Shown: positions 3,279 to 24,299, counted from the stretch's first letter. The stretch: 40,738 bases of DNA from Planctomycetia bacterium (GCA_003170085.1 PMZT01000292.1:1-40738); one strand, 5' to 3'. Made by a program: numbers and translations. Notes: generated from the sequence alone by a model not told the origin.

Positions 3279-3341
3279 CTGCCCCCGCACGCTGTCGGTT
3301 TCGCACGAAGGTGGAACACTCCCCTCTGGCCCGACATTCGG

Positions 3342-4415
3342 TCATGCCGGGTTCGCCGAGCCCGCCGTGTCCGCGATCTCCAACTCGCCTCCTGCCAGGG
3401 CCGCGTCGTGGCTTGTTCCGCACGGGCGGCAGACCAGATGCGCGCCGTCGAGGCTCAGCCACAGCCTTGAGCCGCACGCGGGACAAGCCGGCACACGAAC
3501 CTTGTGGGTGCCCTGGGGCGTCTGGCAACGGACCCTTCTCGCGGGGAACATCCGCCGCCGCCAGCCCATCACCACACGGACCGTCCACCACGTCACCAGT
3601 GCCCAGAACACCGTTGGGACGACCAGCCACACTTGAGGCTCAACATCGGTCCGCAGTTTGCTGAAACTCGAAGTCATGTAGTCCAAGATGGCCCAAGTGC
3701 TCGGCGCAATGCAGGCCAGAGCGGCGTACGACCCACTGTGCTGAAGAACATACGCCCATCGGAGGCCACGCCGAATCCCCCAGCCCGCCAGTCCGGCCAG
3801 GGCAAGCCACGCCAAGAACAGCAGCACCAGGCTGGTCAAGAGCATCAGGACTCGCAAATCCAGGCAACTTTGCGCGACCATCACGATACCGTACCCCAGT
3901 GCCACCAGGGCAAGTACACCGCTCCATAGGCAGATTGCCCATCGGGTGATCCGCAGCAGGGGATCGCCGATCAAAGGGATGGGGTGCTCGCGTCTCCATC
4001 GTCGCCACGCGATCCATCGTTGACGCGATTCAATGAAATCGCACGCGAGGATACCAAGGACGGCGCCTATAACAATCGAGCCGCCGATCTCCGCCGTTGC
4101 CGTCAGGTCCGGCGTAAGGCAACCGAGGAACACCGCCGTCCATCCCCAGCAGACGGCAACCCAGATGATCTTCAGCAGCGCAAGCACGAGCCGTCCAATC
4201 GCCGTTGCCGGCCGGCGATTGAGGAAGGTCAGGGCGATAACAACCACCGCAAACAGGGGGATACTCAGGAGTAACGGGGCGTTCGATACGGCCTCAAGCC
4301 CTGTGTACGTGTGGGAGGCACTGCAACCGTGCATGGTCACGAACGGCAGCGGCAGCACTCCCAGAACCACCACCGCCAGAATGCGCCGGGACCATTTCAA
4401 GATACGGTCGAGCAT
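3342..4415 (-). CDS. Multi-pass membrane protein with C-terminal zinc ribbon
   Basis: A 357-residue protein of unknown function. The ATG at 4415 is preceded by GGGGAGG, which fixes the start, although the frame stays open to 4697. The N-terminus has a signal-anchor-like helix (about residues 12-30). Five or six further hydrophobic segments follow, with a basic cytoplasmic-looking loop rich in Arg/Trp around residue 145. Residues 311-332 form a CPAC...CRPC zinc ribbon on a soluble tail. It stands alone, transcribed away from the large secreted protein at 5098. I do not recognise a specific family. Confidence 0.75.
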   Translation of the reverse strand: MLDRILKWSRRILAVVVLGVLPLPFVTMHGCSASHTYTGLEAVSNAPLLLSIPLFAVVVIALTFLNRRPATAIGRLVLALLKIIWVAVCWGWTAVFLGCLTPDLTATAEIGGSIVIGAVLGILACDFIESRQRWIAWRRWRREHPIPLIGDPLLRITRWAICLWSGVLALVALGYGIVMVAQSCLDLRVLMLLTSLVLLFLAWLALAGLAGWGIRRGLRWAYVLQHSGSYAALACIAPSTWAILDYMTSSFSKLRTDVEPQVWLVVPTVFWALVTWWTVRVVMGWRRRMFPARRVRCQTPQGTHKVRVPACPACGSRLWLSLDGAHLVCRPCGTSHDAALAGGELEIADTAGSANPA

Positions 4416-8000: not shown

Positions 8001-10539
8001 CAAGGATTGGGAAGAGGCGAGCGCCCTTCTCAAGAACCTCCAGACCGACATACCGGACGGACTGCGGTGGGGCATGGTCGTCTCGCTGCCGGGCGGCGTG
8101 CTGGAGGCCGGCGACGATTCGACACACTCGCACACGGTGGCCGGCCAGCCGTTCGGAGCGCGCCGGTGGTCGCTCTTGAAACTGCCGGATGGGACTCGCG
8201 CGTTCGGCGGCGCGCACTCGCGGTCTCCGCGATACCAGTATCCATCGGAAGATTCGCCGTTCGCGGGAATGGTCTACGAAACGCCGGACGGGTCAGGCGG
8301 GCTGCACTTCCTGTCGCCCCAGGGCGAGAGCCGCTGCGTCTCCAGCCGGCTCCGGACCGATGCCATCCTCGGCGACACGGTCTTTGCCGCCGTCCCCGAC
8401 GAAGCCGGCAAGCGCATCTGGCTATGCACGAGCTTCGGGGTGAGCCTCCTGGACGAGCAGTGCCGCGTGGTCGCGAACTTCACGCACCGCGACGGGTTGC
8501 TCGGTAACCGCGTCTCGGCGGCGGTTGCCATGGGGGGGCGGATGTTCTTTGCCGGCCGGTGGGATGACGAGCGCGGCGGCCTGATGGTCTTCGATCCGGC
8601 CACGTCGGTCTTCACGACCCTCTTCGATCGCGACGGAATGGCCACCAACAGCCTGGAGTCGCTGGCGGCCAAGGGCGATAGCATCGAGCTGACTTACGGC
8701 GTGCAGTACCTCCGCTACGGCCCTGGCGGCGGCCACTACCGGCTCTACGCTCCCACGACCTACACGCCGTCCACCGGGAACTTTTCCCCACCCGGCCAAC
8801 CGCGAATCTTCGACCCTGAGGCAGGACTCCCACCGACCAAAAAACCTATCGGTGAGATGCCGTACCTTGGCGGCTACGTCATCGACAGGAAGGTGATCGG
8901 GAACAGAACGTTCCTTTGCGGCACGCGCGGGCTGGTGATCCTCGACGGCCCGACGGCGCCGGAGATGAAGATCGGCCGGATAGACCCCATCCTGACCCTC
9001 AGCCCTGCCGCCGCCCAGCGGGAGGAGGCCAAGCGGTTCCGCATTCCCGAGAATATCTCACCCGCCCAGTTGAAGGAACTGCTCGCGAATCCGAACCCGT
9101 ACATCGGGGCCAACGCCTTGGCGGCATGCTACACCCCCATGCGGAGTGAGGAGTCCAAGGACTACACCTCCCTCATCGCCGGCTGCGTCGGCCATCCGGT
9201 GCTCTGCGTGCGGTCCACGGCGGTCTGCCTGCTCGCGGAAACCAAGGATCCCGCGGCCATCAAGCCATTGAAGGTTGCCTTGTCCGACAGCGAGCCATTA
9301 ATCCGAGCCATGGCGGCGTTGGCACTGGCCAAGCGCGGCGAAGAGCCGGACCTGGGCTGCTTTGAGGAGATTTTTCACCGGGGAAACGCCGGTTTCGGCA
9401 ATCCGCCGTTCGGCGCCGATTCTTCCCTGGGTGTCGCCGAAGATTACCAGGCGGTCTACGAGGCGCTCGCTCCACGCGCCACGCCGCAGGTCTTCCGGCT
9501 GTTGCTGGAGTATCCGCCCGACCTCAGAAGTTATGACAATAAGACAACCGTCTTTCCGCCATTGGGTGAATCGCTCCGGCGTCATCCCGAGGCGGCGGGG
9601 ATTCTGCTTGGCGCGGCATCCGATGACGTGATGAAGGCGGACTTTGTCCGCGACGTCTTCCGTTTCGCCGGCAAACCCATGTTGCCCATCCTGCACCAGG
9701 CGCTGTCCTCCGACGACCGCGTGGTCCGCTTCAATGCCGCGCGCGGTTGCGGGGCCATCGGCGATCCGTCGTCCATTCCCTTCCTCCTCAAGGCCCTGGA
9801 CATGGAAAGTGGGCTGGCCCGCGCGGGTATCGTCCGGGCGCTGGGGGAACTGAAGGCCAAGGAGGCCCTGCCGGTCCTGGCCCAACTCTATGTCGATGCC
9901 CGCAATGACGAGTCGCGCCGCGCCGGGGCCGGTTATCGAATATCGCAGGCGGCCACTGTCATCCGCAACCAGTACACTGCCCTCAGCAGCCTGGACGCCG
10001 TGGCGGGCGATTGGGACGAACTCAAGGCTTCCCTGAAACCGCGGCCCTCGAATCCGGCGGAGAAGGAACCGCTCCTGAAACCCCAGGACATCCTCGATGC
10101 GGTGGGCGAGATCGGGCCGGCGGCCTCACAGGATTTCTATCGCACCCTGGCGGGCGATAGGAGTGCGGAGGTGCGCGGCGAGGCCGCGAGGAACCTGGCG
10201 GCCGGTAGTCCGCGGGACCTCGACAAGAACCTCCCCCTCCTCAAATGCCTCTTGACGGATGCCGATACTTCCGCCAGCATCCCGGCGGCCGTCAGTCTGC
10301 TGATACTCGACCAGGAGGTGGCGCAGCAACCGATCCTCGCCTGGCTCGAATCGGCGGACCCCTGGCCGAAGAACCGGCTGATCCGTGAATTGGGCCGGGT
10401 CGCCAACCGAGGGCAGTTGACCTTCGCCCACAAAGCCATCGCCGCCTATGCGGAGGATCCGACTTGCGATAAGTATCTCCGCAAGACAGCGCGGAGCCTC
10501 CTGGATTCCAACCCGGCGACGCCCAAGAAAACGCCGTGA
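5098..10539 (+). CDS. Giant secreted protein: TPR, beta-propeller and HEAT repeats
   Basis: 1813 residues. A signal peptide (about 1-26, AxA-type cleavage near AEA-QE) sends it across the inner membrane. Residues about 30-500 are helical with TPR-like repeats (for example LLVRGDLLLALGDKAGALTC). About 710-1300 is beta-rich with repeated propeller-blade motifs (LYVGQPWGVAIYDFDGK, LWIATGRNIRTYN, RIWLCTSFGVSLLDE, TFLCGTRGLVILDG), like the sensor propellers of hybrid two-component proteins but with no kinase attached. About 1320-1800 holds HEAT/PBS-lyase-like repeats (VLCVRSTAVCLLAETKDPAA, VVRFNAARGCGAIGDPSSIP). All three parts are binding scaffolds; no catalytic motif was seen. Start supported by AAAGGA. 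It appears monocistronic. Role unknown. Confidence 0.85.
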   Translation: MPPRPTAGLLLWTLALTVSAACAEAQEQPRNPFAMARKLESQGRAAEAFKAFLAVPGGEFAAVKLARHKAREFLTLLDGMPQTPAQPRTLLVRGDLLLALGDKAGALTCYRQVLGMIAKDGSQEWTQGFMPRDYYPVEPPGGSAEEYRPGSALPFTLGCGSHRDNWLIRRLLALEAYDDAGGEFERIWAIHRVRAGKGQFDALGLEFAIDYAFFLKKRNPPDNALAVLQEPLLHIDMDRNPGLGKSAEVWIGFGSGPLGLSRKEFIRLAFGQFKESGKEDALVTALTRQIEGGRNAARRVLARIRLHQGKVDEAVALELDYIQSAGFEPLTQAVRRGSVYEDLRRLPEAAAEYEKALALPYAPLALPAPDEEVVDAERHAATSRVLPAPGSREARIAFQTELLGRLRRLYAAMGMADKMLDLSLRELDVDEALLGDPDLFDQTAASFKAAGHTDPFQEWARRRLGQVESLQAKANLCWALKDTAGAVRAVAAWAKTLGDNDRYLLEPWEQRFATLDIASQRMFLEELAKARPTDGQVTIRLLELMGPADPKVLIPMVESVLESRAFEINWEAVMHGGRRRAYSPGPAHYESSFGFAYRLMRLYEKTGQTDKVLALGLRVAQGKKPFSYPDFEQFSGRESNGVPDLGEACLAVAIAHATDAKSQEALAEALAPSPWEVAKAQVARIRAGGLQPAADAKPFGWSGTPEGVTLIASNECVLSLCRDDKHLYVGQPWGVAIYDFDGKPVTRVPLQTAALHMVAVNGALWVGTPIGLYRIDPATWDVSCLSCDQDVPAAERQGGTRIIGLAAQGDLLWIATGRNIRTYNTKTNAMKAYSAEDMGLKEYVDVGTFFFDGRFVWITGVRYDPEADRWQAPAAPDEGHPVHVIGLVGDTLWGDVWVNGALGARPCIIDRRTLKVTPVLIEERKPESVQDINGPFFYVGQYNNRPVFRASQSPLLVYDAPSGKLKPTKDWEEASALLKNLQTDIPDGLRWGMVVSLPGGVLEAGDDSTHSHTVAGQPFGARRWSLLKLPDGTRAFGGAHSRSPRYQYPSEDSPFAGMVYETPDGSGGLHFLSPQGESRCVSSRLRTDAILGDTVFAAVPDEAGKRIWLCTSFGVSLLDEQCRVVANFTHRDGLLGNRVSAAVAMGGRMFFAGRWDDERGGLMVFDPATSVFTTLFDRDGMATNSLESLAAKGDSIELTYGVQYLRYGPGGGHYRLYAPTTYTPSTGNFSPPGQPRIFDPEAGLPPTKKPIGEMPYLGGYVIDRKVIGNRTFLCGTRGLVILDGPTAPEMKIGRIDPILTLSPAAAQREEAKRFRIPENISPAQLKELLANPNPYIGANALAACYTPMRSEESKDYTSLIAGCVGHPVLCVRSTAVCLLAETKDPAAIKPLKVALSDSEPLIRAMAALALAKRGEEPDLGCFEEIFHRGNAGFGNPPFGADSSLGVAEDYQAVYEALAPRATPQVFRLLLEYPPDLRSYDNKTTVFPPLGESLRRHPEAAGILLGAASDDVMKADFVRDVFRFAGKPMLPILHQALSSDDRVVRFNAARGCGAIGDPSSIPFLLKALDMESGLARAGIVRALGELKAKEALPVLAQLYVDARNDESRRAGAGYRISQAATVIRNQYTALSSLDAVAGDWDELKASLKPRPSNPAEKEPLLKPQDILDAVGEIGPAASQDFYRTLAGDRSAEVRGEAARNLAAGSPRDLDKNLPLLKCLLTDADTSASIPAAVSLLILDQEVAQQPILAWLESADPWPKNRLIRELGRVANRGQLTFAHKAIAAYAEDPTCDKYLRKTARSLLDSNPATPKKTP

Positions 10540-11109
10540 TCGCCCCAGACGGTGTGGTACGGAATGCCGGATGCCATCGCTCTTCTCCTTCTGGCGGGGG
10601 AAAGAAATCCGCCGGTGGATCCGGTGCGGTATCCCCTGCTCATCACGTAAACCGTCGGAAGCCGCGGTTCTTGATATCGCCCATGCCGTCCTCGAACGGC
10701 CAAAGGTTTCGCTGAGCGGCAGCCCTCGTATCGCAACAACGTAAATTCGCCATAAGGTCAGATTCGCCGGACAAACGGAGATGCCAACTTCATGTACCTT
10801 GGGGAGCGCATGAGAGCGCCGTAGGATGCCCTCCATGGCGCGGCGACGTGGCCTCTGGCGCAGGGGGAACCCTACTCGCCTTCAAGGGAACGCTCAAGTC
10901 CATTCCAAGGGACATCCGCCCCCTGCGAAACGTCTTCGGCGAGATCTGCGAATCCCTGAAGTACAAGCCGACCCGACGTGCCGACGGCAAGCAGGCCCTG
11001 CGCGCCAAACACGGGGGAAGAGGATGAAGAAGTCTCACTCCAACTGGACCCGAACCGTGGGCAAGGACAGCCCGCGTTTGTCCGTCGGCGTAGCGACCCT
11101 CCGTAGTCG
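10540..11109. other. Intergenic region, mostly featureless
   Basis: About 570 bp between the giant secreted protein and the ligase promoter. Apart from the possible coding fragment at about 10833-11027 I see no supportable gene, RNA or repeat. Confidence 0.5.
10833..11027 (+). pseudogene. Possible coding fragment, unrecognised
   Basis: A plus-strand frame ending with TGA at 11025-11027 reads GGTLLAFKGTLKSIPRDIRP then RNVFGEICESLKYKPTRR in normal-looking codons, but has no credible start or ribosome-binding site. It may be the 3' end of a decayed gene. I cannot name a family. Confidence 0.25.
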
Positions 11110-11138
11110 TTGACGGCAGCACGGACGGCCAGTATACT
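11110..11138 (+). promoter_or_regulatory. Promoter of the benzoate-CoA-ligase-like gene
   Basis: -35 TTGACG (11110-11115), 17-bp spacer, -10 TATACT (11133-11138): a near-consensus sigma-70 promoter about 60 bases before the ATG at 11200. Confidence 0.75.
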
Positions 11139-11199
11139 TAGCCGCAACTGACTGGCGCAGCAAGAAGCGGGCTTGGTTCCGCCACGGAAGGTGGGTTGC

Positions 11200-12780
11200 A
11201 TGCCGGTCCCGGAGATTCCCGAGCGACTCAACGCGGCGACGGTGCTTGTCGATGCCCATATTGCCGCGGGCCGAGGCGCCAAGCCTGCCATCCTGTGCGA
11301 AGAGAGAGTTGTCACGTATGGCGCGCTTTGCGAAGGCGTCAACCGGCTGGGCAACGTTCTGAAGGAACTGGGCGTGCGGATGGAGGAGCGTGTCGCCATC
11401 CTCATGCCTGACAGTCCGGAGTTCGCGTTCGCCTTCTTCGGGGCCATGAAGACGGGCGCGGTGGCCATCCCGATGAACACGCTCCTGGTGCCGCGCGATT
11501 ACGAGTATCTTCTGAACGACAGCCGCGCACCGGTCCTGGTGGTGCACGCGTCGCTCCTGGACCGCATCGCGGGCATTCGCGACGGGCTGCGGTACCTGAA
11601 GCACGTGTTGGTCTCTGGCGAGGCGGCGGCAGGGCATCCGGACCTGGAAAGCGCCATGCACCGGGCTTCGCCCGCGTTGGCGGCCGCCGACACGAGCAAG
11701 GATGACGCCGCCTTCTGGCTCTACAGTTCGGGGACCACGGGCTTCCCCAAGGGCACGATCCATCTTCACCACGACATGATCGTGTCGGCGGACCTGTACG
11801 CCAGGCAGACGATCGGCCTCGAGGAATCGGACGTCAGTTTCTCGGTGGCCAAGTTGTTCTTCGCCTACGGCCTGGGGAACGGGCTGTTCTTTCCGCTCCA
11901 CGTCGGGGGGACGACGGTGCTTCTTCCCGGCCGGCCCACGCCCGAAAAGGTGTTCGAGACGCTGGACACGTACCGGCCGACCGTCTTCTACAGCGTCCCG
12001 ACAAGCCTGGCCCAACTGCTGCACACGGCCGAGAAGGAGGGCCGGACCGCCTTGGGGCGCGTCAGGATGTGCGTGTCGGCCGGCGAACCCCTGCCGAAAC
12101 CCATCTTCGAAAAATGGCGCGACCGCTTCGGCGTGGAAATCCTGGACGGCATCGGCTCAACCGAAATCCTACATATCTTCATTTCGAATCGCCCCGGCCG
12201 CGCCAAGGCGGGAAGCACCGGCCAGATCGTCCCCGGCTACGAGGCCAAGATCGTGGACGAGCACGGGCAGCGAGTCCCCGACGGCGAGGTCGGCAACCTC
12301 CTCATCAAGGGCGACAGCATTGCCGCCGGCTACTGGAACAAGCACGAGCACACCCAGCGGACGTTCCTGGGCGAATGGATCAACACGCACGACAAGTTCC
12401 GGCTGGACGCGGACGGCTACTTCTGGTACGCCGGGCGCAGCGACGACATGATGAAGGTGAGCGGCATGGTCGTCTGGCCGAGCGACGTGGAGGCCGTTTT
12501 GCAGGCGCATCCGGCCGTCCTTGAGAGCGGCGTGGCGGCCGCCACCGACGAGGATGGCCTCGTCAAACCGTACGCCTACGTCGTGCTGAAGGACGGGCGC
12601 CAGGCTTCGCCGGAACTTGCAGAGGCGTTGCAGGAGTTCGTGAAGAAGAACGCCGCCCCGTACAAGTATCCCCGGTGGGTGGAATTCGTCGATGCGCTGC
12701 CCAAGACCGCAACGGGCAAGATCAAGCGATACCTGCTGCGCCAGAGGGCGGCGGCCAGGACCGCGTCACAGCCGCACTAA
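11200..12780 (+). CDS. Benzoate-CoA ligase family acyl-CoA synthetase
   Basis: A 526-residue ANL-superfamily enzyme that should convert a carboxylate to its CoA thioester via an acyl-AMP. Motifs: AMP-binding loop YSSGTTGFPKGT (residues 175-186), IGSTE adenine-binding motif, YWNKHEHT and the hinge region YAGRSDDMMKVSG, and the C-terminal catalytic lysine K507 in TGKIKR. Length and overall pattern (FAYGLGNGLFFPL, SVPTSLAQLL) fit the benzoate-CoA ligase subfamily (which includes anthranilate-, cyclohexene- and hydroxybenzoate-activating enzymes) more than acetyl-CoA synthetase, so an aromatic or cyclic acid substrate is likely but unproven. ATG 11200 has a GGAAGG site; a TTG at 11173 is less likely. 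Its 3' end overlaps the convergent KAS III gene by 15 bp. Confidence 0.9.
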   Translation: MPVPEIPERLNAATVLVDAHIAAGRGAKPAILCEERVVTYGALCEGVNRLGNVLKELGVRMEERVAILMPDSPEFAFAFFGAMKTGAVAIPMNTLLVPRDYEYLLNDSRAPVLVVHASLLDRIAGIRDGLRYLKHVLVSGEAAAGHPDLESAMHRASPALAAADTSKDDAAFWLYSSGTTGFPKGTIHLHHDMIVSADLYARQTIGLEESDVSFSVAKLFFAYGLGNGLFFPLHVGGTTVLLPGRPTPEKVFETLDTYRPTVFYSVPTSLAQLLHTAEKEGRTALGRVRMCVSAGEPLPKPIFEKWRDRFGVEILDGIGSTEILHIFISNRPGRAKAGSTGQIVPGYEAKIVDEHGQRVPDGEVGNLLIKGDSIAAGYWNKHEHTQRTFLGEWINTHDKFRLDADGYFWYAGRSDDMMKVSGMVVWPSDVEAVLQAHPAVLESGVAAATDEDGLVKPYAYVVLKDGRQASPELAEALQEFVKKNAAPYKYPRWVEFVDALPKTATGKIKRYLLRQRAAARTASQPH

Positions 12781-13767
12781 CGCCGAGGCCCACACAAAAC
12801 CCGACCCGAAGGCGACCAGCAGGACAAGGCTTCCGTCGCGCGCCATGCCCGACTTCCGCGCCTGGTCCAGCGCGATGGGAAGGCACGCCGACGCCATGTT
12901 GCCGTACTCCTGAACGTTCACGAAGACCTTCTCCATCGGAGCGGCGACGCGGGCGACAACGGCTTCCAGCATCCGCAGGTTGGCCTGGTGTGGAATCAGC
13001 ACGTCGATGGCGTCCATCGTCAGGCCGTTGACCTTCAGGGACTCCACGACGGCCTCCGACATTCGCGCGACGCCGTTGTCGAACACCGCCCTGCCGTCCA
13101 TCCTGAAGTGCACGCGGCCGGCGTCGATGTCTTCCTTGGTGATGTGCTCGGTGCGGCCCAGCGCGCTGCCAGGCGCCGCGGTGTAAAGGGCCTTGGCGCC
13201 TGCGCCGTCGGCGTGAAGGATGGTCGAGAGGATGCCCTTGCGGCCGTCAGCCGACGGCCCCACGACGACCGCCCCTGCCCCGTCGCCCAGAAGAATGGCG
13301 ATGTTACGCCCGTCGAGAGACCCGTCAATCCTCTTCGAGAGGACCTCGGAACACGCGACCAGCACGTGGCGGTACGTGCCCGCCCTGACGAAGTGGTCGG
13401 CGATAGCCAGCCCGTATATGAGCCCGGCGCACTGCTGGCGGATATCCATGACGGCAATGCCCGGCAACCCCAACTTGGCCTGGAGGAAGAACGCGCACCC
13501 GGGGTCGGCGTGGTCCGGGGTGATGGTATTCATGATGAGAAGGTCGACCTGGTCCATGCGGAGTCCGGCGTCCTGGACTGCCGCGCGGCAGGCCGGCACG
13601 GCCAGGTCCGATGCGCTCACGCCCGGTTCGGCGTACCTGCGGCAGCGCACACCCGTACGTTCAACGATGAACTCGTTGGTCGTCTCCATCCTCTTCATGA
13701 TGTCTAAGTTGGTTACTACCTTCGGGGGCAGGTAATGGCCGGTCCCGAGAATGCGCGACAGGATCAT
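12766..13767 (-). CDS. 3-oxoacyl-ACP synthase III (KAS III/FabH-like)
   Basis: A 333-residue thiolase-fold condensing enzyme. The catalytic triad is complete: C113 (QQCAGLIYGL), H260 (IPHQANLRML) and N290 (EYGNMASACL). R37 in the ERTGVR motif and the GDGAGAVVV loop also fit FabH. FabH proper condenses acetyl-CoA with malonyl-ACP, but many paralogues such as PqsD use aryl-CoA or other starters. Embedded here as the last gene of a CoA-ester operon, with no fatty-acid genes beside it, a specialised pathway role is more likely than housekeeping. Start ATG 13767 follows GAGAGGTGGGG and shares ATGA with the stop of the MBL gene, indicating translational coupling. Confidence 0.92.
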   Translation of the reverse strand: MILSRILGTGHYLPPKVVTNLDIMKRMETTNEFIVERTGVRCRRYAEPGVSASDLAVPACRAAVQDAGLRMDQVDLLIMNTITPDHADPGCAFFLQAKLGLPGIAVMDIRQQCAGLIYGLAIADHFVRAGTYRHVLVACSEVLSKRIDGSLDGRNIAILLGDGAGAVVVGPSADGRKGILSTILHADGAGAKALYTAAPGSALGRTEHITKEDIDAGRVHFRMDGRAVFDNGVARMSEAVVESLKVNGLTMDAIDVLIPHQANLRMLEAVVARVAAPMEKVFVNVQEYGNMASACLPIALDQARKSGMARDGSLVLLVAFGSGFVWASALVRL

Positions 13768-14723
13768 GCCCCACCTCTCTGGACGTTCCCGTGCTCGTCC
13801 GGCTCCAGGCCGGCGTACCGGAAAGACTGCTTTACGAGAAGTCCGCAGTTTTTCTGGAAGAAATCGAGCGGCAGCAACTGCGTCCTCGCATAGACCTCCG
13901 AGCCGAGTTGCCCCGCGATCTCGCGGGCCGAGCGGCCGGCCCCCGCTTCGCTGACGATGCGTTCGTGATACTGCTGAGTTGCGGCCAGTGCCCCGTCGAA
14001 ATAGGCGCGAACGGCCGGGGCGCCCGCGATGGCCGCATTGTGGCTCAGGCACAGGACCCCGGCACCGAGCGCCGCCAGGCGCCGTATCGAATTCATGTAG
14101 GCCTCGTACCCCGTGAAATAGTTCGGCCACCAGAAATCAGGGTCGGGCAGGTAGTACCCCGTGGCATCGGATATCACCAGGACGCCGGCGCCCGGCTCGT
14201 GAAAACTAAGGCTGCACTCGCTGTGCCCCGGCGTTTCAAGGACGCGGAACAGAGCGCCCTCATCGACCGAGACCGTGTCGCCTTCCCTGAGGAGGCGGTC
14301 CACGGCAATCCGGTCCTGGGCCAGAGGCGCGGGGCGGTGCGCCTCGGTGATCCGCCCCGCCCGCGCGAGAGATTCTGTCAGCGTATCGTCCACCTGGCGG
14401 AAGAACGCGATCGCCTTGGCCGCCGCGAGCGTCCTGGCCGCGGCCTCCGAGGCCAGGACCTTGACTCCCGGGAACGCCTCGCGCAGTATCGGCACGGCCA
14501 TCACGTGGTCCGGATGGGCATGCGTGATGACGACCTGCTTGACGAAGCCGCGGCCGATGCCCATCGCGCGCAACTGCTCCAGGACGAGCGGCCCCATGGC
14601 GCCGACGCCGCCCTCGAATATCGTGCCTTCGCGCTCGCCCTTGAAGAGGAACAGAGGATACTCGTTGGTCCCGAGCATCCAGAGTCGCGGCGTGATCGCC
14701 GCCGGGGGGTCCTTGATCAGCAT
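13764..14723 (-). CDS. MBL-fold metallo-hydrolase
   Basis: 319 residues. The metallo-beta-lactamase signature THAHPDH (HxHxDH) is near residue 80, with a further His (ETPGHSECS) and Asp (ISDATGY) in the expected positions and a late SHN metal ligand, so a di-metal hydrolase site is likely. MBL proteins include glyoxalase II and aryl-CoA thioesterases (PqsE, 2-aminobenzoylacetyl-CoA thioesterase). In this operon thioester hydrolysis of a CoA intermediate is the most economical guess. The C-terminal 70 residues are helical, as in several MBL thioesterases. The start has AGGAAGGGAAG upstream. It overlaps the upstream activator gene by 7 bp and the downstream KAS III gene by 4 bp. Confidence 0.85.
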   Translation of the reverse strand: MLIKDPPAAITPRLWMLGTNEYPLFLFKGEREGTIFEGGVGAMGPLVLEQLRAMGIGRGFVKQVVITHAHPDHVMAVPILREAFPGVKVLASEAAARTLAAAKAIAFFRQVDDTLTESLARAGRITEAHRPAPLAQDRIAVDRLLREGDTVSVDEGALFRVLETPGHSECSLSFHEPGAGVLVISDATGYYLPDPDFWWPNYFTGYEAYMNSIRRLAALGAGVLCLSHNAAIAGAPAVRAYFDGALAATQQYHERIVSEAGAGRSAREIAGQLGSEVYARTQLLPLDFFQKNCGLLVKQSFRYAGLEPDEHGNVQRGGA

Positions 14724-15508
14724 AGCTGCTTCCCTTCCTGTGCCCTTTCCCTGGCAGCAAGCGCCGCCCCGAAAGCGCCCACGTGCTGTGGCTCGGGGGG
14801 CACCAGCGCCTGGCGGCCGAAGGCCTCTGCCACCAACGTGACCAGCAGCGGGTTGTGCGCCACGACGCCGCCCGTCATCACCAGGGCGCCGTCCACGGTG
14901 TCCATCTCCAGGATGCGTTTGACGACGGAACGAAACGCGCCCTTGACGATGTCCTCGACCTTCTCGCCTGCCCGGATCCTCGCCAGTATCTCGGTCGCCG
15001 TAAACACGGTGCAGAAACTGCCGAGCGTGACCTCTTTCGTCGAGCGTTCGGCCAGGCCGTTGAGCGCCGACACCGGCAGGTCCAGCCGCAGGGCTATCTC
15101 CTCCAGGAACGAACCCGTCCCGGCCGCGCACTTGCGGTTCATCTTGAACCCCGTGCGGCGGCCGTCGTCGTCGAGGTGGATGACCTTCGAGTCCTGCGCC
15201 CCGATGTCGATGACCGTCATTTTCCCGCGGAAGTGGAACCATGCGCCCTGGCCGTGGCAGGCGATCTCGGTCCTCCTGGCGTCGGCCCACGGCACGTTGT
15301 CGCGTCCGTAGCCCGTTGAGACGGAGGCCGCAAGTTGCCCCCGCTCCAGGCCGGCCGCCGACAGGGCCTCCGCGAGGCACCGCTCGGCGACGTCGGCGTA
15401 GTCCACGCCGGAACGGCGCAGGGACTTGGCCACTATCCGCCCGCTTTCGTCAATGATGACGAGTTTGGCGGCCGAGGCCCCGATGTCAACTCCACAGAAA
15501 TACGGCAT
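14717..15508 (-). CDS. 2-hydroxyacyl-CoA dehydratase activator (BadF/BadG/HgdC-type ATPase)
   Basis: 263 residues, ASKHA-fold ATPase. It has the phosphate-1 motif GVDIGASAAKLVI, phosphate-2 motif VIDIGAQDSKVI, and the two cysteines that bridge a [4Fe-4S] cluster between monomers (C127 in CAAGTGSFLE, C166 in GSFCTVF). Family members (HgdC, BcrA/D, BadF/G) hydrolyse ATP to push a low-potential electron into the dehydratase or benzoyl-CoA reductase. The upstream gene is exactly such a partner. Two starts are possible: ATG 15508, or GTG 15544, which forms a GTGA overlap with the preceding stop and adds 12 residues; spacing favours coupled initiation in either case. Confidence 0.93.
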   Translation of the reverse strand: MPYFCGVDIGASAAKLVIIDESGRIVAKSLRRSGVDYADVAERCLAEALSAAGLERGQLAASVSTGYGRDNVPWADARRTEIACHGQGAWFHFRGKMTVIDIGAQDSKVIHLDDDGRRTGFKMNRKCAAGTGSFLEEIALRLDLPVSALNGLAERSTKEVTLGSFCTVFTATEILARIRAGEKVEDIVKGAFRSVVKRILEMDTVDGALVMTGGVVAHNPLLVTLVAEAFGRQALVPPEPQHVGAFGAALAARERAQEGKQLC

Positions 15509-15540
15509 AACGCGGCTCCGCTGCGCGGCCCGGACGGCCG

Positions 15541-16770
15541 TCACCCCTGCGCCAACTGCTCCACAAACGCCTCGACGTTGGTGCGCGCCTGCTCCTCCGA
15601 ATACAGCCGCAGGTCATTCAGGTCGCCGTTGACCACGAGGTACGGCTTCCCGGTTTTCTGCTGGAGGCGTTGCGGCATCTGGTAGCGGTTGTTTGAGTTG
15701 TTGGGGCAGGTTTTCGCGTCGTGGTACAGCACGCCGTCGACCTTGAATCGCGCCATCATGCGTTCCAGGTACTTCTCCTTGTAATCTTCGCTGCGGCAGA
15801 TGAAGAGGTTCGAGTACGCCCGGGCCATGCTCCTGAACGGGTCGGAGGGGTCGAGGTCCTCGAAGACCCAACTATTGCAGTACGTCGAGGCCACCACACA
15901 GGCCCGCAGGGCCGCGAACTGGGTGGCAAGGTCCCGCAACTTGCCCCAGATGGGCATCCCCTCCCAATAGATGCGGAACCGCTCGCCCTCGACCGCCGGC
16001 ACCTTGCCGGCCACGCGCGACTGGAGTTCGGCCAGCAGCACCTCATAGTAGGCGATGGCGTCCGGGTGGCCGCGCAGGACGACGGCCGGCCCCATCTGGA
16101 TCGTATCGTCGAAGAACGTGATGGGCGCCGGCACGTTGGCCGCCGTGTCGAGCACCGCCTTCCACAGCACGGTGCATCGCCTGGCGAGGTCGAGGGTCTC
16201 CTTGAGGCGAGCGGGGTCCAGTTTCGTGCCGGCGACCTCCTGGAGCGGCTTGACCAGCGCTTCGGTCTGCCGCGCCACGGCCTCGATGATGGAATCGTCC
16301 AGTTCGCCGATAGCGCGCGGCGTATGGATACCGAGGCACGGAACGCCCCACTCGCGTGCGTAGAACTGGAACCAGTCCTTGACGTCGCGGCACTGGTTCG
16401 TGTTGTAGACCAGACAATCGGCCCTGGGAGGGCCGGGCATCTTCATCTTCTGGAAGGGACTCTCGCCTTTCAGGTACGACCCGATGTCGCTCGTCAGGTA
16501 AGAGCAGACATCGGGCGAGAACCCCCGCGCGTTGGCCAGCGGGATGAGGTCCGTGGCCATGCGCGTGGCGCCCAGCATGGCGCCATGGTTCTCCGGGAAG
16601 TACACGTTGAACCCCATCGCGCGGAGCAACTCGGCCGGGCCCACGCTGGTGCACCAGGCCGTTTTCCTTCGCTCCTCGCGCCCCCGCATGAGTTCCATGT
16701 AGTACTTTCCCATGACCTCCTTCATCTTGGCGGTGGCCGCAAGGTCCTTTCGCTCCGTGGGTGACGGCAT
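15541..16770 (-). CDS. 2-hydroxyacyl-CoA dehydratase / benzoyl-CoA reductase-type subunit (HgdB/BcrB family)
   Basis: 409 residues of the HGD-D family (PF06050), which bind a [4Fe-4S] or double-cubane cluster and carry out ATP-dependent radical reactions on acyl-CoA esters. Likely cluster ligands are C40 (TAWCTS), C127 (NTNQCRD) and C355 (AKTCPNN), at the family's three conserved positions; further cysteines are C89, C119, C145, C291, C298 and C325. Usual enzymes pair two homologous subunits; only one is encoded here, so a homodimer, a missing partner elsewhere, or a double-cubane-type protein are the options. ATG 16770 is preceded by GGAAGGAG and shares one base with the previous stop (TAATG). 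The activator follows directly. Confidence 0.9.
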   Translation of the reverse strand: MPSPTERKDLAATAKMKEVMGKYYMELMRGREERRKTAWCTSVGPAELLRAMGFNVYFPENHGAMLGATRMATDLIPLANARGFSPDVCSYLTSDIGSYLKGESPFQKMKMPGPPRADCLVYNTNQCRDVKDWFQFYAREWGVPCLGIHTPRAIGELDDSIIEAVARQTEALVKPLQEVAGTKLDPARLKETLDLARRCTVLWKAVLDTAANVPAPITFFDDTIQMGPAVVLRGHPDAIAYYEVLLAELQSRVAGKVPAVEGERFRIYWEGMPIWGKLRDLATQFAALRACVVASTYCNSWVFEDLDPSDPFRSMARAYSNLFICRSEDYKEKYLERMMARFKVDGVLYHDAKTCPNNSNNRYQMPQRLQQKTGKPYLVVNGDLNDLRLYSEEQARTNVEAFVEQLAQG

Positions 16771-18857
16771 TATCGCACTCCTTCCATTTCTCTCAGGTGC
16801 CGGCAGGGCGAGAACCGCGCCCCGTGTTCCTCCGCCAGCCGGTCAAGGTCCGCCCGGACGTTGCCCAGGCCGAGGTCGCGTGCATATCTTAGCACGCCGC
16901 CGCGAAAATCGGGAAACCCCGTTCCCAGCACCAGGGCAACGTCAAGGTCCGATTCCCGCTGCGCAACGCCCTCTTCCATCACGTAGAATGCCTCGTTGAC
17001 CATCCGCAGGACAAGACGCCGCGTGATCTCATCCTTGCCCACGGGGCGCGGCGCGCGGCCTGCGGCCTGCTGTACTTCCGCGATGACCTGTGCGGTTTCG
17101 GCGCTCGGGTACGGCGTGCGATCACCCTTCTCGTATCTGTACACCCCCGCTCCGCTTTTCTGGCCAAGACACCCGCGCTCCACCAGGCGTACGGCGACTT
17201 GCGACAACAGCCCATGGGCGGGAAAGGCGCGGCTCAGCACACGGTCCGTGAGCACCAGCACGTCCAGCCCCGCCATGTCAACCAGCGTCAGGGGCCCCAT
17301 CGGGAACCCAAACTCGACCATGGCGCCGTCGATGGCCGGCGCATCCGCCCCCTCCTCCAGCAGCCAGAAGGCCTCCTTCAGGTACGGAATGAAGAGGCGA
17401 TTGACCAGGAAACCTTCGCGGTTCCTGACGAGCACCGGCGTCTTGCGGATGGACTTGACGAACCCGAGCGCCGCCGCCACAACGCTGTCTGCCGTCGCGT
17501 CTCTCCTGATGACCTCCACGAGCGGCATGTGGTGCGCGGGGTTGAAAAAGTGCATGCCGACCAGCCGCTCGGGACGCCGCAGCCCAGCGGCCAGCACGTC
17601 CAGCGAGATCGTGGACGTGTTCGTGGCGATAATCGTGCCGTCGCCGCAGGCGGCCTCGATCCGCCCGATGACAGCGCGCTTCACGGCCGTCTCCTCGAAC
17701 ACCGCCTCAACGACAAGCGGGGCGTCGGCCACCTGCTCCCAGTCCGCCGTCGTGGAAAGCAGGCCGAGTATGCCTTCCGCCGCCTCCGGCTTGAGGTCGC
17801 CCTGCTCGACTCGGCCGCGGATGCTGCTTCGTATCCGGTCCGCCCCTTTCCGAAGAGCCGCATCGTCCTGGTCGAGAACCGCCACCCGTATGCCGCAGGT
17901 GATGAAGGCCTGCGCTATGCCCGTGCCCATCGAGCCCATGCCGATCACGGCGGCCCGCGTTATGTCGGCAGCGGGGCCTGCCGGCAGCGCCGGAATCTTA
18001 CCCGCCTGGCGCGCCGCAAAGAAGAGGTATATCTTGTTGCGCGCCGCCGGCGTGCCCATGCACTCGGCGAAGCCTTCCTGCTCCTTGCGCAGGCCTGCCC
18101 GGAAAGACTCCTTCAGGCCGGTCCGGACCGCCTCAAGGATTATCCGGGGCGCGATGATCTCCGGACGCACGCCGGCCAGTCGCTCTGGGGCGCTCCGGAA
18201 GGCGGCTTCGTCGGCGGCCCCGTTCAGCCGGTCGGTGCGGCCGCTCGTCCGGCGCGGCGCGGCAGCGGACTGGAGCAGGGCACGGGCGCTCTCGACAAGG
18301 TCGTCGCCCGCGCAGACCGCATCCATGAGGCCGGTCACGCAGGCGCGGCGGGCATCAACGGCATCGCCCGTCAGGAGCATCCCCAGCGCCTCTTCCGCGC
18401 CGACCAGCCTGGGCAGCCGCTGCGTGCCGCCCCCCCCGGGATTGATACCAAGCGTAACCTCCGGCATGCTGAACCGGGCCGCCTTGTCACAGACGCGGTA
18501 GTGACAGGCCATGGCCAGTTCCAGCGCGCTGCCCATGACGCGCCCCGCCACGGCCGCCGCCACCGGCTTGGCGGAATCCTCCACCGCCTGGAACGCTTCC
18601 TGGAACACGCGCGACGCCCGGACCGCCTCTTCGGCGTTCGACAGGTCCCGGAACAGGGCCAAGTCGGCGCCCGCGCTGAAATGGTCAGGCCGGCCGGTCA
18701 GGATGATCCCCCGGACGCGGGGCTCCGCGCAGGCCCGGCGAACGGCGGCCACCAATTCATCCAGAAGCGCGAAGGTGATCGTATTGACCGGCGGCGCATT
18801 AAGCCGGAGCACGCACACGCCGCCTGATACGGTAGACTCAATCATCCGCCCCGCCAT
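16770..18857 (-). CDS. Bifunctional enoyl-CoA hydratase / 3-hydroxyacyl-CoA dehydrogenase
   Basis: 695 residues with the FadB/FadJ layout. Residues 1-190 are a crotonase domain with the two catalytic glutamates E113 (SALELAMACHYRV) and E133 (MPEVTLGINPGGGGTQRLP); the usual GGG before E113 is GSA. Residues 300-480 are the NAD-binding Rossmann domain (GMGSMG 306-311) with catalytic H436 (HFFNP) and E448. Residues 480-690 form the tandem 3HCDH C-terminal domains. It hydrates an enoyl-CoA and oxidises the 3-hydroxyacyl-CoA with NAD+. In this operon it could act on a dienoyl-CoA made by the dehydratase/reductase, analogous to Dch in benzoyl-CoA degradation, or in ordinary beta-oxidation. The start is 8 bp after the ADH stop. 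Confidence 0.93.
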   Translation of the reverse strand: MAGRMIESTVSGGVCVLRLNAPPVNTITFALLDELVAAVRRACAEPRVRGIILTGRPDHFSAGADLALFRDLSNAEEAVRASRVFQEAFQAVEDSAKPVAAAVAGRVMGSALELAMACHYRVCDKAARFSMPEVTLGINPGGGGTQRLPRLVGAEEALGMLLTGDAVDARRACVTGLMDAVCAGDDLVESARALLQSAAAPRRTSGRTDRLNGAADEAAFRSAPERLAGVRPEIIAPRIILEAVRTGLKESFRAGLRKEQEGFAECMGTPAARNKIYLFFAARQAGKIPALPAGPAADITRAAVIGMGSMGTGIAQAFITCGIRVAVLDQDDAALRKGADRIRSSIRGRVEQGDLKPEAAEGILGLLSTTADWEQVADAPLVVEAVFEETAVKRAVIGRIEAACGDGTIIATNTSTISLDVLAAGLRRPERLVGMHFFNPAHHMPLVEVIRRDATADSVVAAALGFVKSIRKTPVLVRNREGFLVNRLFIPYLKEAFWLLEEGADAPAIDGAMVEFGFPMGPLTLVDMAGLDVLVLTDRVLSRAFPAHGLLSQVAVRLVERGCLGQKSGAGVYRYEKGDRTPYPSAETAQVIAEVQQAAGRAPRPVGKDEITRRLVLRMVNEAFYVMEEGVAQRESDLDVALVLGTGFPDFRGGVLRYARDLGLGNVRADLDRLAEEHGARFSPCRHLREMEGVR

Positions 18858-18864
18858 TTCCCGA

Positions 18865-19824
18865 TCACAACTCCAGTGTGAGTTTCAGTGAGCCCTCGGC
18901 GCACGTGGCGTACATCTCGAAGGCCTCCGGGGCTTTCTCCCAGGGCATGCGCGGCGTGACCATGTCGCCCACGTCCACGCGCCCGTCGACCACCCTGTCA
19001 ACCGCGATCTGGAAGAACTCCGAGCACTCCGGCCCCACCGACGTGATAATAGTGATCTCGTTGCGGAACGTGTCATACCACGGGAACGGCTGGTCGTTGT
19101 AGTCCGGCATGCCGAAGACGAAGAGCCGGCCGGCCCGCCTGGGTAGATGCGCCGCCGTGGCCATGGAGTCGGGCTTGCCGGCGGCATCGACGCAGAAGTC
19201 GACCTTTTCGCCACCGGTCAGTTCCTTCACCCTTTCGACGACGTCCTCTTTCGACGCATCAATGACGTCGCTGGCGCCGAATCGCCTGGACCACTTCAGG
19301 CGCCACGCCAACTTGTCGATCGCGATGACCTGCCGCGCGCCCATCAGGCCGAGCACGTGGGTCCAAATCAGCCCCATAGGGCCCTGGCCGACGACCGCGC
19401 AGCGCTGGTTGATGACGTTGCCCGTTTGCGAAAGGGCACGCAGGACGGTCGAGAGCGGCTGGGCCACGATGAGCGCGGCCACGTCCGGCGCATCCGGCGG
19501 CAGCGCGGCAACGCCCGGGGGCTTGGCCCGGATGAACTCGGCAAAGCCGTAGTACCCTTCGGGTTGGGCCAGGACCAGCGTGCCGGGTTTCCACGCATCG
19601 CATCGAGATTCGACGATAGTGCCGATATTCTCGTGTCCCGCCCATCCCACGGGGTTGGGGAAATCGATCTTGCCCCACACGCCCTCGCCCGTGTACTGGC
19701 CCATGTTGCTTCCGCACAGGGCCACGTAACGGCACTGCACCAGGACCTCCCCGGGCAGCGGCTCGGGCTTCGGAGCGTCAAGGAAGGCGATTTTCCTGGG
19801 TTCCACGATATGGATGGCTCTCAC
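18865..19824 (-). CDS. Zinc-type alcohol dehydrogenase (MDR family)
   Basis: 319 residues. GroES-like N-terminal domain with catalytic zinc ligands C37 (ALCGSN) and H64-E65 (GHE), then an NAD(P)-binding Rossmann fold (VVGQGPMGLIW). The lobe carrying four structural-zinc cysteines is absent. It belongs with medium-chain dehydrogenases such as threonine, sorbitol and 6-hydroxycyclohex-1-ene-1-carbonyl-CoA dehydrogenase. First gene of the minus-strand operon, so it may oxidise a hydroxyl on the pathway's CoA ester, as Had does in benzoyl-CoA degradation; this is inference. Start GTG 19824 is chosen from an upstream AGGAGG; the frame stays open to 19965 without a credible site. A weak TTGTGA/TACCAT promoter may lie near 19970-20000. 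Confidence 0.85.
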   Translation of the reverse strand: MRAIHIVEPRKIAFLDAPKPEPLPGEVLVQCRYVALCGSNMGQYTGEGVWGKIDFPNPVGWAGHENIGTIVESRCDAWKPGTLVLAQPEGYYGFAEFIRAKPPGVAALPPDAPDVAALIVAQPLSTVLRALSQTGNVINQRCAVVGQGPMGLIWTHVLGLMGARQVIAIDKLAWRLKWSRRFGASDVIDASKEDVVERVKELTGGEKVDFCVDAAGKPDSMATAAHLPRRAGRLFVFGMPDYNDQPFPWYDTFRNEITIITSVGPECSEFFQIAVDRVVDGRVDVGDMVTPRMPWEKAPEAFEMYATCAEGSLKLTLEL

Positions 19825-22385: not shown

Positions 22386-24065
22386 TTACGCACGGCGCCG
22401 CCGCGGTCTCCGCCGGCTGCCCTTGAGGAGGCCCGCGCTCTTCGCCAGGCGCGATGCCAGACGGTCCAGGGCGTCGGACCGGTCCAAGGGGTCCAGGTGA
22501 ACGTTGATGAGCGAGAAGCCGGCGGCGTTGCCGCGAGCCTGGGCGAGGGCCGCCTCGAGGTCGCCCTCGGTCCGGACCTCGCAGCCCCACCCGGCGCGGA
22601 GGAGTTCGGGCCACTTATGATATGCCCAGTCGTGGATATCGTTATACGGTCCATCCTTCAGGAACCGCTCCGTGGTGTAGCCCTTGTTGTTCAGCACGAA
22701 GATGATCGGGTTGAGGCCGTACTTCACGACCGTCGAGAGCTCCTGCCCGGTCATCTGGAACGCCCCGTCGCCGACGAACACGACCGGCCTGAGGCGCGGC
22801 CGCCCGATCTGCGCCCCCACGGCCGCCGGAACGCCGAAGCCCATCGACGTGTAATACGCCGGGCTGATGAACTCCGTGCGCCGGTGGATAACGAGGTCGG
22901 CGGCGCCGAAGAGGCTGTCGCCGACGTCCGAGATCACCGCGAATTCGTCCTCCAGAAAATCGTTCATGCGGGCGAAGAAGCGCCGGACGGTCATCTTGCG
23001 GCCCGGCTGCGCATGGAACGGCTTGGGCGGGGCCGGCGGCACGGGCGGCGCCCGGCGACAGCGGTCGATCGGGGCCGCGATCAGGCCGCGCAGGAAATCG
23101 CGCAGCGTGATCTCCTCGAACTGGTGATGGCGGATGGCGATCCGCTCGGAGTTCGCGTTGATCGTCCGCGACACGTCGAGGTTGGCCGTGAAGATGCCAA
23201 GGTCGATGTCGGTCATGAACTCGCCCAGGATCAGCAGGCAGTCGGCCTGCTCCACGGCCTTGCGGACCTCGTCGCGGCCCATCGCGCCCTCGTACACGCC
23301 CAGGTACTGCGGGTGACGCTCGGAGATCACCGACTTCCCGAGCAGCGTGGCCGCCACGGGGTAGCCGCTCCGTTCCACCAGGCGCAGCAGCATGTCCTGG
23401 AGGCCGAAGCGGTGGACCTCCACGCCGGCCAGGATGACCGGCCGCCGGGCGGCGCACAGCATGGCAGCGGCTTCGCCCACCGCCTCGCGGAGCGTCGCGG
23501 GGTCGCTGGGGACCGGCGCCGACGGCAGCGGCGCGGGGCGGGCACACGGCCGGTCGACCATGTCGCGCGGCAGCTCGAGGTACACCGGCCGCTTGGTCCG
23601 CAGGCAGGCGGCAATCGTTTCGTCGATCTGGCCGGGGGCGCGGGCGGGGTCCTCCAGCGCCGCCGACGCCACCGTGACCTGCTCGAAGATCAGCCGCTGC
23701 GTGTTGAAGTCCTTCACCCGGTGATGCAGCAGCGGCGAGCGGATCCGTTCGCGCATCCCCGGCGCCCCGCTGATGACGATCAGGGGCGATTTCTCGGCGT
23801 ATGCCCCGGCGACCGCATTGAGGGCGCTCAGCCCGCCCACGCAGTACGTCACGCACAGGGCGCCCAGGCCGTTGACGCGGGCGTAGGCGTCGGCGGCAAA
23901 GCCCGCCCCGGCCTCGGTGCAGGTGCCGATGACGCGCAGCGGGCTGCGGCTGAGCATGTCGTAGAAGTTCAAGACGTAGTCGCCGGGGATGCCGAAGACG
24001 TGCTTCAGCCCGCGTTCGCGGAGGCGATGAATCAGGTACTTGCCCACCGTCATCGATTCTGCCAT
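22386..24065 (-). CDS. Thiamine-diphosphate 2-oxoacid decarboxylase (pyruvate/indolepyruvate decarboxylase type)
   Basis: 559 residues, three-domain TPP enzyme. N-terminal PYR domain with FGIPGDYVLNFYDML and the TPP-activating glutamate E51 (CTEAGAGFAADAYAR), and a paired H114-H115 as in pyruvate and indolepyruvate decarboxylases. The central domain lacks an obvious FAD site. The PP domain (residues about 360-540) has the cofactor motif GDGAFQMTGQELS through NN at 432-460 and NKGYTTE. The reaction would be non-oxidative decarboxylation of a 2-oxoacid to an aldehyde; the substrate is not readable. The C-terminus is Arg-rich. ATG 24065 is preceded by AAGGAG. It is monocistronic and divergent from the macroglobulin gene. 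Possible -10 TATAAT at 24125-24120 with a palindromic TTTCCGGAAA next to it. Confidence 0.9.
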   Translation of the reverse strand: MAESMTVGKYLIHRLRERGLKHVFGIPGDYVLNFYDMLSRSPLRVIGTCTEAGAGFAADAYARVNGLGALCVTYCVGGLSALNAVAGAYAEKSPLIVISGAPGMRERIRSPLLHHRVKDFNTQRLIFEQVTVASAALEDPARAPGQIDETIAACLRTKRPVYLELPRDMVDRPCARPAPLPSAPVPSDPATLREAVGEAAAMLCAARRPVILAGVEVHRFGLQDMLLRLVERSGYPVAATLLGKSVISERHPQYLGVYEGAMGRDEVRKAVEQADCLLILGEFMTDIDLGIFTANLDVSRTINANSERIAIRHHQFEEITLRDFLRGLIAAPIDRCRRAPPVPPAPPKPFHAQPGRKMTVRRFFARMNDFLEDEFAVISDVGDSLFGAADLVIHRRTEFISPAYYTSMGFGVPAAVGAQIGRPRLRPVVFVGDGAFQMTGQELSTVVKYGLNPIIFVLNNKGYTTERFLKDGPYNDIHDWAYHKWPELLRAGWGCEVRTEGDLEAALAQARGNAAGFSLINVHLDPLDRSDALDRLASRLAKSAGLLKGSRRRPRRRRA

Positions 24066-24119
24066 GGACCGGAATCTCCTTGGGTACGGCCGCCGCACGT
24101 TGTCCGCGCCACGCTTTCC

Positions 24120-24139
24120 ATTATAGTGTTTCCGGAAAA
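24120..24139 (-). promoter_or_regulatory. Possible -10 and adjacent palindrome for the TPP enzyme gene
   Basis: Minus-strand TATAAT at 24125-24120, and the 10-bp palindrome TTTCCGGAAA at 24130-24139, placed where a repressor or activator could bind. The -35 is poor. Confidence 0.35.
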
Positions 24140-24299
24140 GGGTTGCACTGGCGCGGTCGGCAGCATATCGTAGGAATTTGCCCGAGCTGTACATCCTGCA
24201 ATTGCGAGCCGTGCAACCAAACGCACGTTGGATCATGGTCATGTCTTTCTGTCGCGCCCCAGATCATTTCCCGCCGTGCCAAACCTCTAGGAGCTTGCG

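Follow-up and report, generated by a model that had tools for sequence, protein, structure and literature searches.

A conserved gene cassette in uncultured anoxic-water bacteria combines a benzoate-CoA ligase, a single HGD-D subunit with its activator, and a PqsD-PqsE-like pair

In a 40,738-nucleotide stretch of DNA from a Planctomycetia bacterium (GCA_003170085.1, PMZT01000292.1:1-40738; hereafter the window), seven intact open reading frames (ORFs) fill positions 11200-19824 and form a real, conserved cassette. Its families are all known; a literature search, covering mostly openly readable papers, returned no description of their combination. The window is contig 296 of a metagenome-assembled genome (MAG) of 4.47 Mb in 313 contigs. 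A coenzyme A (CoA) ligase gene (LIG) is on the plus strand, and the minus strand carries, in order of transcription, a medium-chain dehydrogenase/reductase (MDR), a hydratase-dehydrogenase fusion (ECH/HAD), an HGD-D subunit (HGD), its activator ATPase (ACT), a metallo-hydrolase (MBL), and a condensing enzyme of the KAS III class (KAS). We read the cassette, with a confidence slightly below even, as a self-contained and horizontally spread unit that handles CoA esters of benzoate or a close analogue under anaerobic conditions, most likely in the biosynthetic direction. Its gene content suggests that simple aromatic acids enter an anaerobic pathway not yet described. The initial annotation, made from the DNA alone, had already described a ligase and six compact minus-strand genes, and the seven ORFs and their family calls were confirmed with Pfam and NCBIfam.

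Conservation and horizontal spread of the cassette

Besides the window genome, 12 MAGs carry the cassette whole or in part (13 genomes in all). By tblastn with the seven proteins, the order MDR, ECH/HAD, HGD, ACT, MBL, and KAS with a convergent LIG was found on single contigs at loci L026, L028, and L031; the set is split over contigs in genomes G004, G057, and G062 and is partial, truncated, or modified at L024, L027, L029, and L105 to L107. The ordered set that the initial annotation proposed to look for thus recurs in other genomes, and its concern that the order might be conserved nowhere else can be dropped. In the window, as in most other cassettes, LIG converges on the operon; the exceptions are L027, where LIG lies upstream and no close MDR is present, and L107, which has no adjacent LIG. 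At L024, the order is kept despite inserts inside the cassette (a kinase/WD-repeat gene, a transposase-like gene, and a HigBA-like toxin-antitoxin pair; 5562-8630 and 10971-12112). No recurring flanking gene was seen around the cassettes. At L028 (15961-18581), a methyltransferase gene and a gene for a berberine-bridge-type FAD oxidase follow directly downstream of LIG; they are possible tailoring genes and are not conserved in the other cassettes.

HGD has homologues of 70-85% identity in 3 of 60 relatives and also in six GTDB contigs from Verrucomicrobia, Kiritimatiellia, Planctomycetes, and Phycisphaerae MAGs. The carriers are uncultured bacteria of anoxic waters from at least two phyla. 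Among 392 genomes of the phylum, the MBL profile matches cassette genomes only, and viral contigs scanned with KAS gave no match. Between the window and its nearest relative, divergence is biased to third codon positions in all seven cassette genes, which, together with the recurrence of the ordered set, argues that the cassette is more than a chance assembly. That the genes are unrelated and adjoin by accident is almost certainly wrong, since 13 genomes from several phyla hold to the order even where genes have been inserted.

As an internal clock we used the housekeeping FabH of the same genomes, a member of the same protein family as KAS. Inside the window's own family, FabH and cassette KAS differ little in identity, with 83% and 87%, respectively, for window and G004 and 81% and 82% for window and L031. 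In distant genomes, FabH identity is 45-52%, against 71-75% for cassette KAS and 71-78% for HGD, with KAS at 75% where FabH is at 49%. Because KAS and HGD are far more alike than FabH across these distances, movement of the cassette as a unit accounts for the pattern better than uniformly slow evolution, and the cassette probably spreads horizontally. HGD distances follow those of ACT (r = 0.89), a closer correlation than other gene pairs show.

KAS and MBL resemble PqsD and PqsE

A nine-sequence KAS profile searched against the PDB found PqsD as the best match (330 bits), followed by an ordinary FabH (289 bits). KAS and PqsD share the motif EVLSKRxD..GRNxxILLGDGAGA and a TAAPGSA stretch, which the FabH compared does not have. 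Phylogenetic analysis places the cassette KAS with PqsD, HmqD, and a Photobacterium homologue, apart from eleven FabHs, with a support of 92/100 (not starred); the alternative that groups cassette KAS and FabH against the rest is likewise not rejected (p-AU 0.44). Cys113, His260, and Asn290 are invariant in the cassettes, and in all ten cassette genomes searched, a FabH-like gene (37-43% identity to the query KAS) exists apart from KAS. The grouping with PqsD and HmqD over FabH and the Cys-His-Asn residues are those of a PqsD-type KAS III. An assignment of KAS as BioZ was rejected, as PqsD scores far higher.

The MBL profile likewise has its best PDB match in PqsE (92 bits; next best, 55 bits), and the metal ligands (HxHxDH, His167, Asp186, and His228) are all invariant. 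With these ligands and its place beside a PqsD-type gene, MBL belongs to the PqsE type, although the identity is only about 30%. A tblastn search of a plasmid collection (72,556 records) gave six MBL matches, three of them in the very records that match KAS best, and in these three the KAS and MBL homologues adjoin: pqsABCDE, an hmq-like cluster, and a Photobacterium cluster. Judged by these comparisons, KAS and MBL are a PqsD-PqsE-type pair, an identity that was missed when they were first recorded as a condensing enzyme and a "thioesterase-like" protein. In Pseudomonas, the pair starts the synthesis of quinolone signals: PqsD converts anthraniloyl-CoA and malonyl-CoA or malonyl-acyl carrier protein (ACP) to 2-aminobenzoylacetyl-CoA, which is then hydrolysed by PqsE; in FabH-like enzymes, the His and Asn residues serve the decarboxylation of the malonyl donor (PMC4807248).

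HGD and its predicted double-cubane cluster

HGD matches PF06050 (226 bits), with 3o3m, 9g87, and 8s02 as the nearest structures; it scores 175 bits with HadB alpha, 84 bits with MbdO, and 70 bits with BzdO. It stays under every curated cut-off (bits reached/bits needed: HadB, 209/750; BcrB, 140/487; BzdO, 69/449; double_cubane NF040772, 64/350), so that of the Bcr class first proposed for it the BCR/HAD family stands and a curated Bcr or Bzd subunit does not. Each cassette has one HGD-D protein and one activator, with no dedicated second HGD-D subunit, and no BcrC-like match in the cassette genomes exceeds 75 bits (cut-off, 421), which makes a homodimer the simplest expectation for HGD. The cassette therefore has neither the two HGD-D subunits, two activators, and B/O subunit scores of a class I benzoyl-CoA reductase nor the alpha-beta heterodimer and HadB score of a 2-hydroxyacyl-CoA dehydratase, the beta subunit being missing. 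A scan of the 392 genomes found 17 with strong HGD matches, after which, contig fragments aside, the scores drop from 503 to 206 bits. The cassette HGD proteins form one clade (99/97) inside this group.

Two further arrangements of HGD-D genes were seen. Non-cassette HGD and activator genes adjoin a gene for an ADP-forming acyl-CoA synthetase-like protein at L108, L111, L114, and L120, a second conserved arrangement in four genomes. At L033 (G000:C190; 4505-19998) and L035 (9037-14510), further HGD-D proteins of the window genome lie with activators in other contexts; some have most or all of the double-cubane cysteines, some stand beside methyltransferase- or corrinoid-like genes, and they look like uncharacterised double-cubane systems.

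In the BzdNO reductase, BzdN binds an [8Fe-9S] double cubane via Cys36/73/100/263/293/327, and the catalytic BzdO binds one [4Fe-4S]-OH2 cluster via Cys95/128/380 beside Glu65 (Fuchs et al. 2025, PMC11971306). In two alignments, C89, C127, C298, C325, and C355 of HGD align exactly to those cysteines of a BzdN-like protein that match 73/100/263/293/327; C40 misses the position of the first ligand by one residue. The cysteines C40, C298, and C325 are without counterparts in BzdO-like proteins. All six cysteines are invariant in the complete cassette HGD sequences, and C325 is unique to the cassette clade, the non-cassette relatives having V, A, or N at this position and the L114 protein also A for C298. 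Glu60 of HGD corresponds to Glu65 of BzdO. HGD looks like a subunit of the catalytic lineage with a complete predicted set of double-cubane ligands, a cysteine set overlooked in the initial annotation, and we consider it about even that it would hold a double cubane. The AlphaFold model (six-row alignment; pLDDT, 59.7) was too poor for geometry.

It is nearly a toss-up, tilting slightly to the negative, whether the extra cysteines bind no double cubane and HGD is an ordinary aryl-CoA reductase or dehydratase with one [4Fe-4S] cluster at C89/C127/C355, an arrangement compatible with any pathway. The relatives that replace C325, and in L114 also C298, presumably still work, HGD is overall of the catalytic type with Glu60, and C40 is out of register; set against this are the invariance of the six cysteines in the cassette clade and the exact alignment of five of them with BzdN-type ligands. 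According to Fuchs et al. 2025 (PMC11971306), no biological function is known for homodimeric double-cubane proteins, and BzdNO is the first enzyme with such a cluster to be given a definite role in catabolism. Here a six-cysteine protein in a single-subunit arrangement sits in a conserved operon with guessable CoA-ester substrates, which makes a double-cubane function testable.

LIG, ACT, ECH/HAD, and MDR

LIG scores 627 bits with TIGR02262 (cut-off, 375), which bears out its first description as a benzoate-CoA ligase; its best PDB match is the benzoate-CoA ligase 2v7b, and it is 46.7% identical to a ligase beside boxABC and 35% identical to PqsA/HmqA. ACT scores 211 bits with TIGR00241 (cut-off, 125) and has HadI (4eht, closest), MbdQ, and HgdC as solved relatives. 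The catalytic residues of ECH/HAD are invariant in both the hydratase part (E113 and E133) and the 3-hydroxyacyl-CoA dehydrogenase part (H436 and E448). In MDR (ADH_zinc_N, 87 bits), the structural-zinc loop is missing; C37 and H64/E65 are kept, and the usual third zinc ligand is replaced by Q122. Two early assignments were not upheld: ECH/HAD, taken for the Dch class, is FadB-like by NCBIfam and Pfam, and MDR, taken for Had, reaches only 20 bits with TIGR03201 (cut-off, 339).

Proposed pathway and competing explanations

The ring-opening hydrolase Oah (TIGR03200) was found in none of the 13 cassette genomes and in 11 of the 12 genomes with a non-cassette HGD (two of the 11 below the cut-off, one being split between frames and one a weaker match). 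Its lack, first noted in the window, is thus genome-wide. A close acyl-CoA dehydrogenase (E <= 1e-80 to the L114 enzyme) is present in 0/13 and 9/12 of these genomes, respectively, and a GcdA-like decarboxylase in 0/13 and 5/12. The usual means of ring opening is thereby missing from the cassette genomes, as are close relatives of the dehydrogenases to be expected in glutaryl-CoA metabolism; in the cassette itself, neither Oah nor Had of the benzoyl-CoA degradation pathway is found. The lack of Oah and of such dehydrogenases, taken with the PqsD/PqsE pair, favors chain extension and product release, in line with the different, possibly biosynthetic, end product suggested in the initial annotation.

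Family membership, conserved catalytic residues, conserved gene order, and the absence of Oah and close acyl-CoA dehydrogenases can be read from the sequences; from them we infer a substrate, direction, step order, cluster type, and product as follows. LIG would form an aroyl-CoA from an aromatic acid. The PqsD-type KAS would take the acyl group on Cys113 and condense it with malonyl-CoA or malonyl-ACP to an aroylacetyl-type beta-keto thioester, which the FadB-like ECH/HAD would reduce and dehydrate, with a further hydride step by MDR. HGD would probably be a homodimer; supplied by the ATPase ACT, it would deliver low-potential electrons at its predicted double cubane and reduce the ring or a conjugated enoyl-CoA. 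Finally, the PqsE-type MBL would cleave the thioester and release the acid. The most specific form of this proposal we consider unlikely: an undescribed anaerobic biosynthesis whose aroyl- or aryl-enoyl-CoA, made by the benzoate ligase and the PqsD/PqsE pair, is reduced by an ATP-driven homodimer of the benzoyl-CoA reductase/dehydratase family with a double cubane. If true, it would place a single-subunit-type double-cubane protein in a definite pathway and give an example of a Birch-type enzymatic reduction for making, not degrading, a molecule. The cassette in general would extend PqsD/PqsE-type chemistry beyond the makers of quinolone signals, into anaerobes of the PVC group, and its study would account for genes that are otherwise annotated as benzoate degradation.

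Several observations weigh against a biosynthetic pathway of this kind. FadB-type ECH/HAD proteins and BclA-type ligases are usually catabolic, and the conserved set contains no ACP, methyltransferase, exporter, or regulator. At L029, in a Phycisphaerae MAG, KAS is gone and an alpha/beta hydrolase gene lies on the opposite strand (2979-3746) between MBL and LIG; a search for a cassette-type KAS elsewhere in that genome found none. With a double cubane in place, a CoA substrate bound as in BzdO would find little space. As MAGs are incomplete, the absences in the cassette genomes count as pooled evidence only. Two relatives of HGD also point to degradation: at L119 (47% identical), Oah-like, Dch-like, Had-like (250 bits), ACT, and BcrC-like (272 bits) genes adjoin in a benzoyl-CoA-type cluster, and at L116, HGD and ACT lie about 9 kb from a full-length Oah (583 bits).

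A variant degradation is a live, if somewhat unlikely, alternative. Benzoate would be activated to benzoyl-CoA by LIG, reduced in the ring by HGD/ACT, hydrated by ECH, and oxidized by MDR to 6-oxocyclohex-1-ene-1-carbonyl-CoA, with MBL and KAS in place of Oah: the ring would be opened by MBL and/or by a retro-Claisen reaction of KAS, and HAD and KAS, acting as a thiolase, would yield glutaryl-CoA and acetyl-CoA. Every step can be assigned to one of the seven genes, LIG is of the BclA type and ECH/HAD of the catabolic type, and the complementary distribution of Oah and MBL plus KAS is what a nonorthologous replacement predicts. Yet KAS keeps the decarboxylating Cys-His-Asn triad and its affinity to PqsD, and we know of no PqsE-type enzyme that opens carbon rings. 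The missing close acyl-CoA dehydrogenase and GcdA also count against degradation, although G354, with an Oah-like gene, lacks both. At L114, HGD and ACT lie near a 4-hydroxybenzoyl-CoA-reductase-like gene and a carboxyltransferase gene. In G125 and G160, Oah lies near a canonical BzdNO-type reductase and Dch-like genes (L173, 4775-13315; L174, 168-6279) and HGD lies elsewhere, so that HGD is an additional protein there. We therefore withdrew the view that the non-cassette relatives are the benzoyl-CoA reductases of their genomes, except for L119. By its gene contexts, the HGD group is tied to anaerobic aromatic metabolism.

A side-chain pathway is quite unlikely. Here HGD/ACT would act as a 2-hydroxyacyl-CoA dehydratase (aryllactyl-CoA to cinnamoyl-CoA), ECH/HAD would lead to aroylacetyl-CoA, and KAS, MBL, and LIG would act on aroylacetyl and aroyl esters in either direction. 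The higher score of HGD with HadB alpha than with MbdO or BzdO would fit, aroylacetyl-CoA is the natural type of ester for PqsD/PqsE-type enzymes, and a phenylpyruvate-decarboxylase-like gene lies in the window. Known dehydratases, however, are heterodimers, and the beta subunit is missing here; the six-cysteine pattern is unlike HadB; and the decarboxylase-like gene was not seen beside other cassettes.

Gene layout and neighborhood in the window

The coordinates of the seven genes are given in Table 1. MDR and ECH/HAD are separated by 7 bp (initially given as 8 bp), ECH/HAD and HGD meet in TAATG, ACT and MBL overlap by 7 bp, MBL and KAS meet in ATGA, and the convergent KAS and LIG overlap by 15 bp. 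The TAATG, 7-bp, and ATGA junctions are as first described, whereas a GTGA junction for ACT is questionable: the ATG at 15508, with which its homologues begin, is the most likely start and leaves a 32-bp gap after HGD.

Table 1. Genes of the cassette in the window
Gene	Product	Position	Strand	Remarks
LIG	526 aa, AMP-forming benzoate-CoA ligase family	11200..12780	+	ATG start; TTG at 11173 possible; TIGR02262
KAS	333 aa, KAS III of PqsD type	12766..13767	-	best PDB match PqsD; Cys113/His260/Asn290
MBL	319 aa, PqsE-type metallo-hydrolase	13764..14723	-	best PDB match PqsE; HxHxDH, His167, Asp186, His228
ACT	263 aa, acyl-CoA dehydratase/aryl-CoA reductase activator ATPase	14717..15508	-	TIGR00241
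HGD	409 aa, single HGD-D subunit, HadB/BcrB/BzdO-type	15541..16770	-	PF06050; predicted double-cubane ligands C40, C89, C127, C298, C325, C355; Glu60
ECH/HAD	FadB/FadJ-type hydratase-dehydrogenase fusion	16770..18857	-	Pfam, NCBIfam; E113, E133, H436, E448
MDR	319 aa, medium-chain dehydrogenase/reductase	18865..19824	-	ADH_zinc_N; C37, H64/E65, Q122

Immediately upstream of LIG, a plus-strand gene (5098-10539) encodes an 1813-aa protein with TPR and HEAT repeats. On the minus strand, 2.5 kb beyond the cassette, lies a gene for a thiamine pyrophosphate enzyme (22386-24242) resembling indolepyruvate/phenylpyruvate decarboxylases (TIGR03394, 400 bits; cut-off, 554); it was rejected as a part of the cassette because none was seen beside other cassettes. 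Farther on (36238-40275, minus strand), a 1345-aa protein combines a hydrazine synthase alpha middle domain (PF18582, 110 bits) with a formylglycine-generating-enzyme domain (PF03781).

Comparison with known systems

With the anaerobic benzoyl-CoA pathway (BclA, Bcr, Dch, Had, and Oah), the cassette shares a BclA-type ligase and functional classes resembling Bcr, Dch, and Had; it differs in that Oah is missing, MDR is not Had, the hydratase is FadB-type, and KAS and MBL are added. Class I benzoyl-CoA reductases (Bcr, Bzd, and Mbd) have in common with HGD/ACT the HGD-D fold, the ATPase activator, three cluster cysteines, and the Glu residue (BzdO Glu65, HGD E60), but the cassette has one HGD-D protein and one activator instead of two each, extra cysteines for a predicted distal cubane, and scores far below the cut-offs. 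Among dehydratases, the (R)-2-hydroxyisocaproyl-CoA enzyme HadBC with HadI provides the closest solved relatives of HGD (HadB) and ACT (4eht); unlike HadBC, the cassette has no beta subunit, and HadB has no cysteine at the positions of C40, C298, and C325. The double-cubane cluster protein (DCCP) and its reductase share with HGD/ACT the single HGD-D subunit and the single activator, and their six-cysteine ligand pattern resembles that of HGD, in which C40 is one residue off, whereas HGD is far from the NF040772 family in sequence (64 bits, under the cut-off of 350) and sits in a CoA-ester operon, DCCPs having no known pathway. The pqsABCDE and hmqABCDEFG alkylquinolone clusters of Pseudomonas and Burkholderia likewise combine an aromatic-acid CoA ligase with a PqsD-type KAS III and an adjacent PqsE-type metallo-hydrolase. 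No PqsB/PqsC condensing pair was seen in the cassette loci, which are thus not pqs or hmq clusters; identity to these systems is only 43-46% for KAS and about 30% for MBL, the ligase is of the benzoate instead of the anthranilate type, and the cassette adds HGD-D with its activator, ECH/HAD, and MDR.

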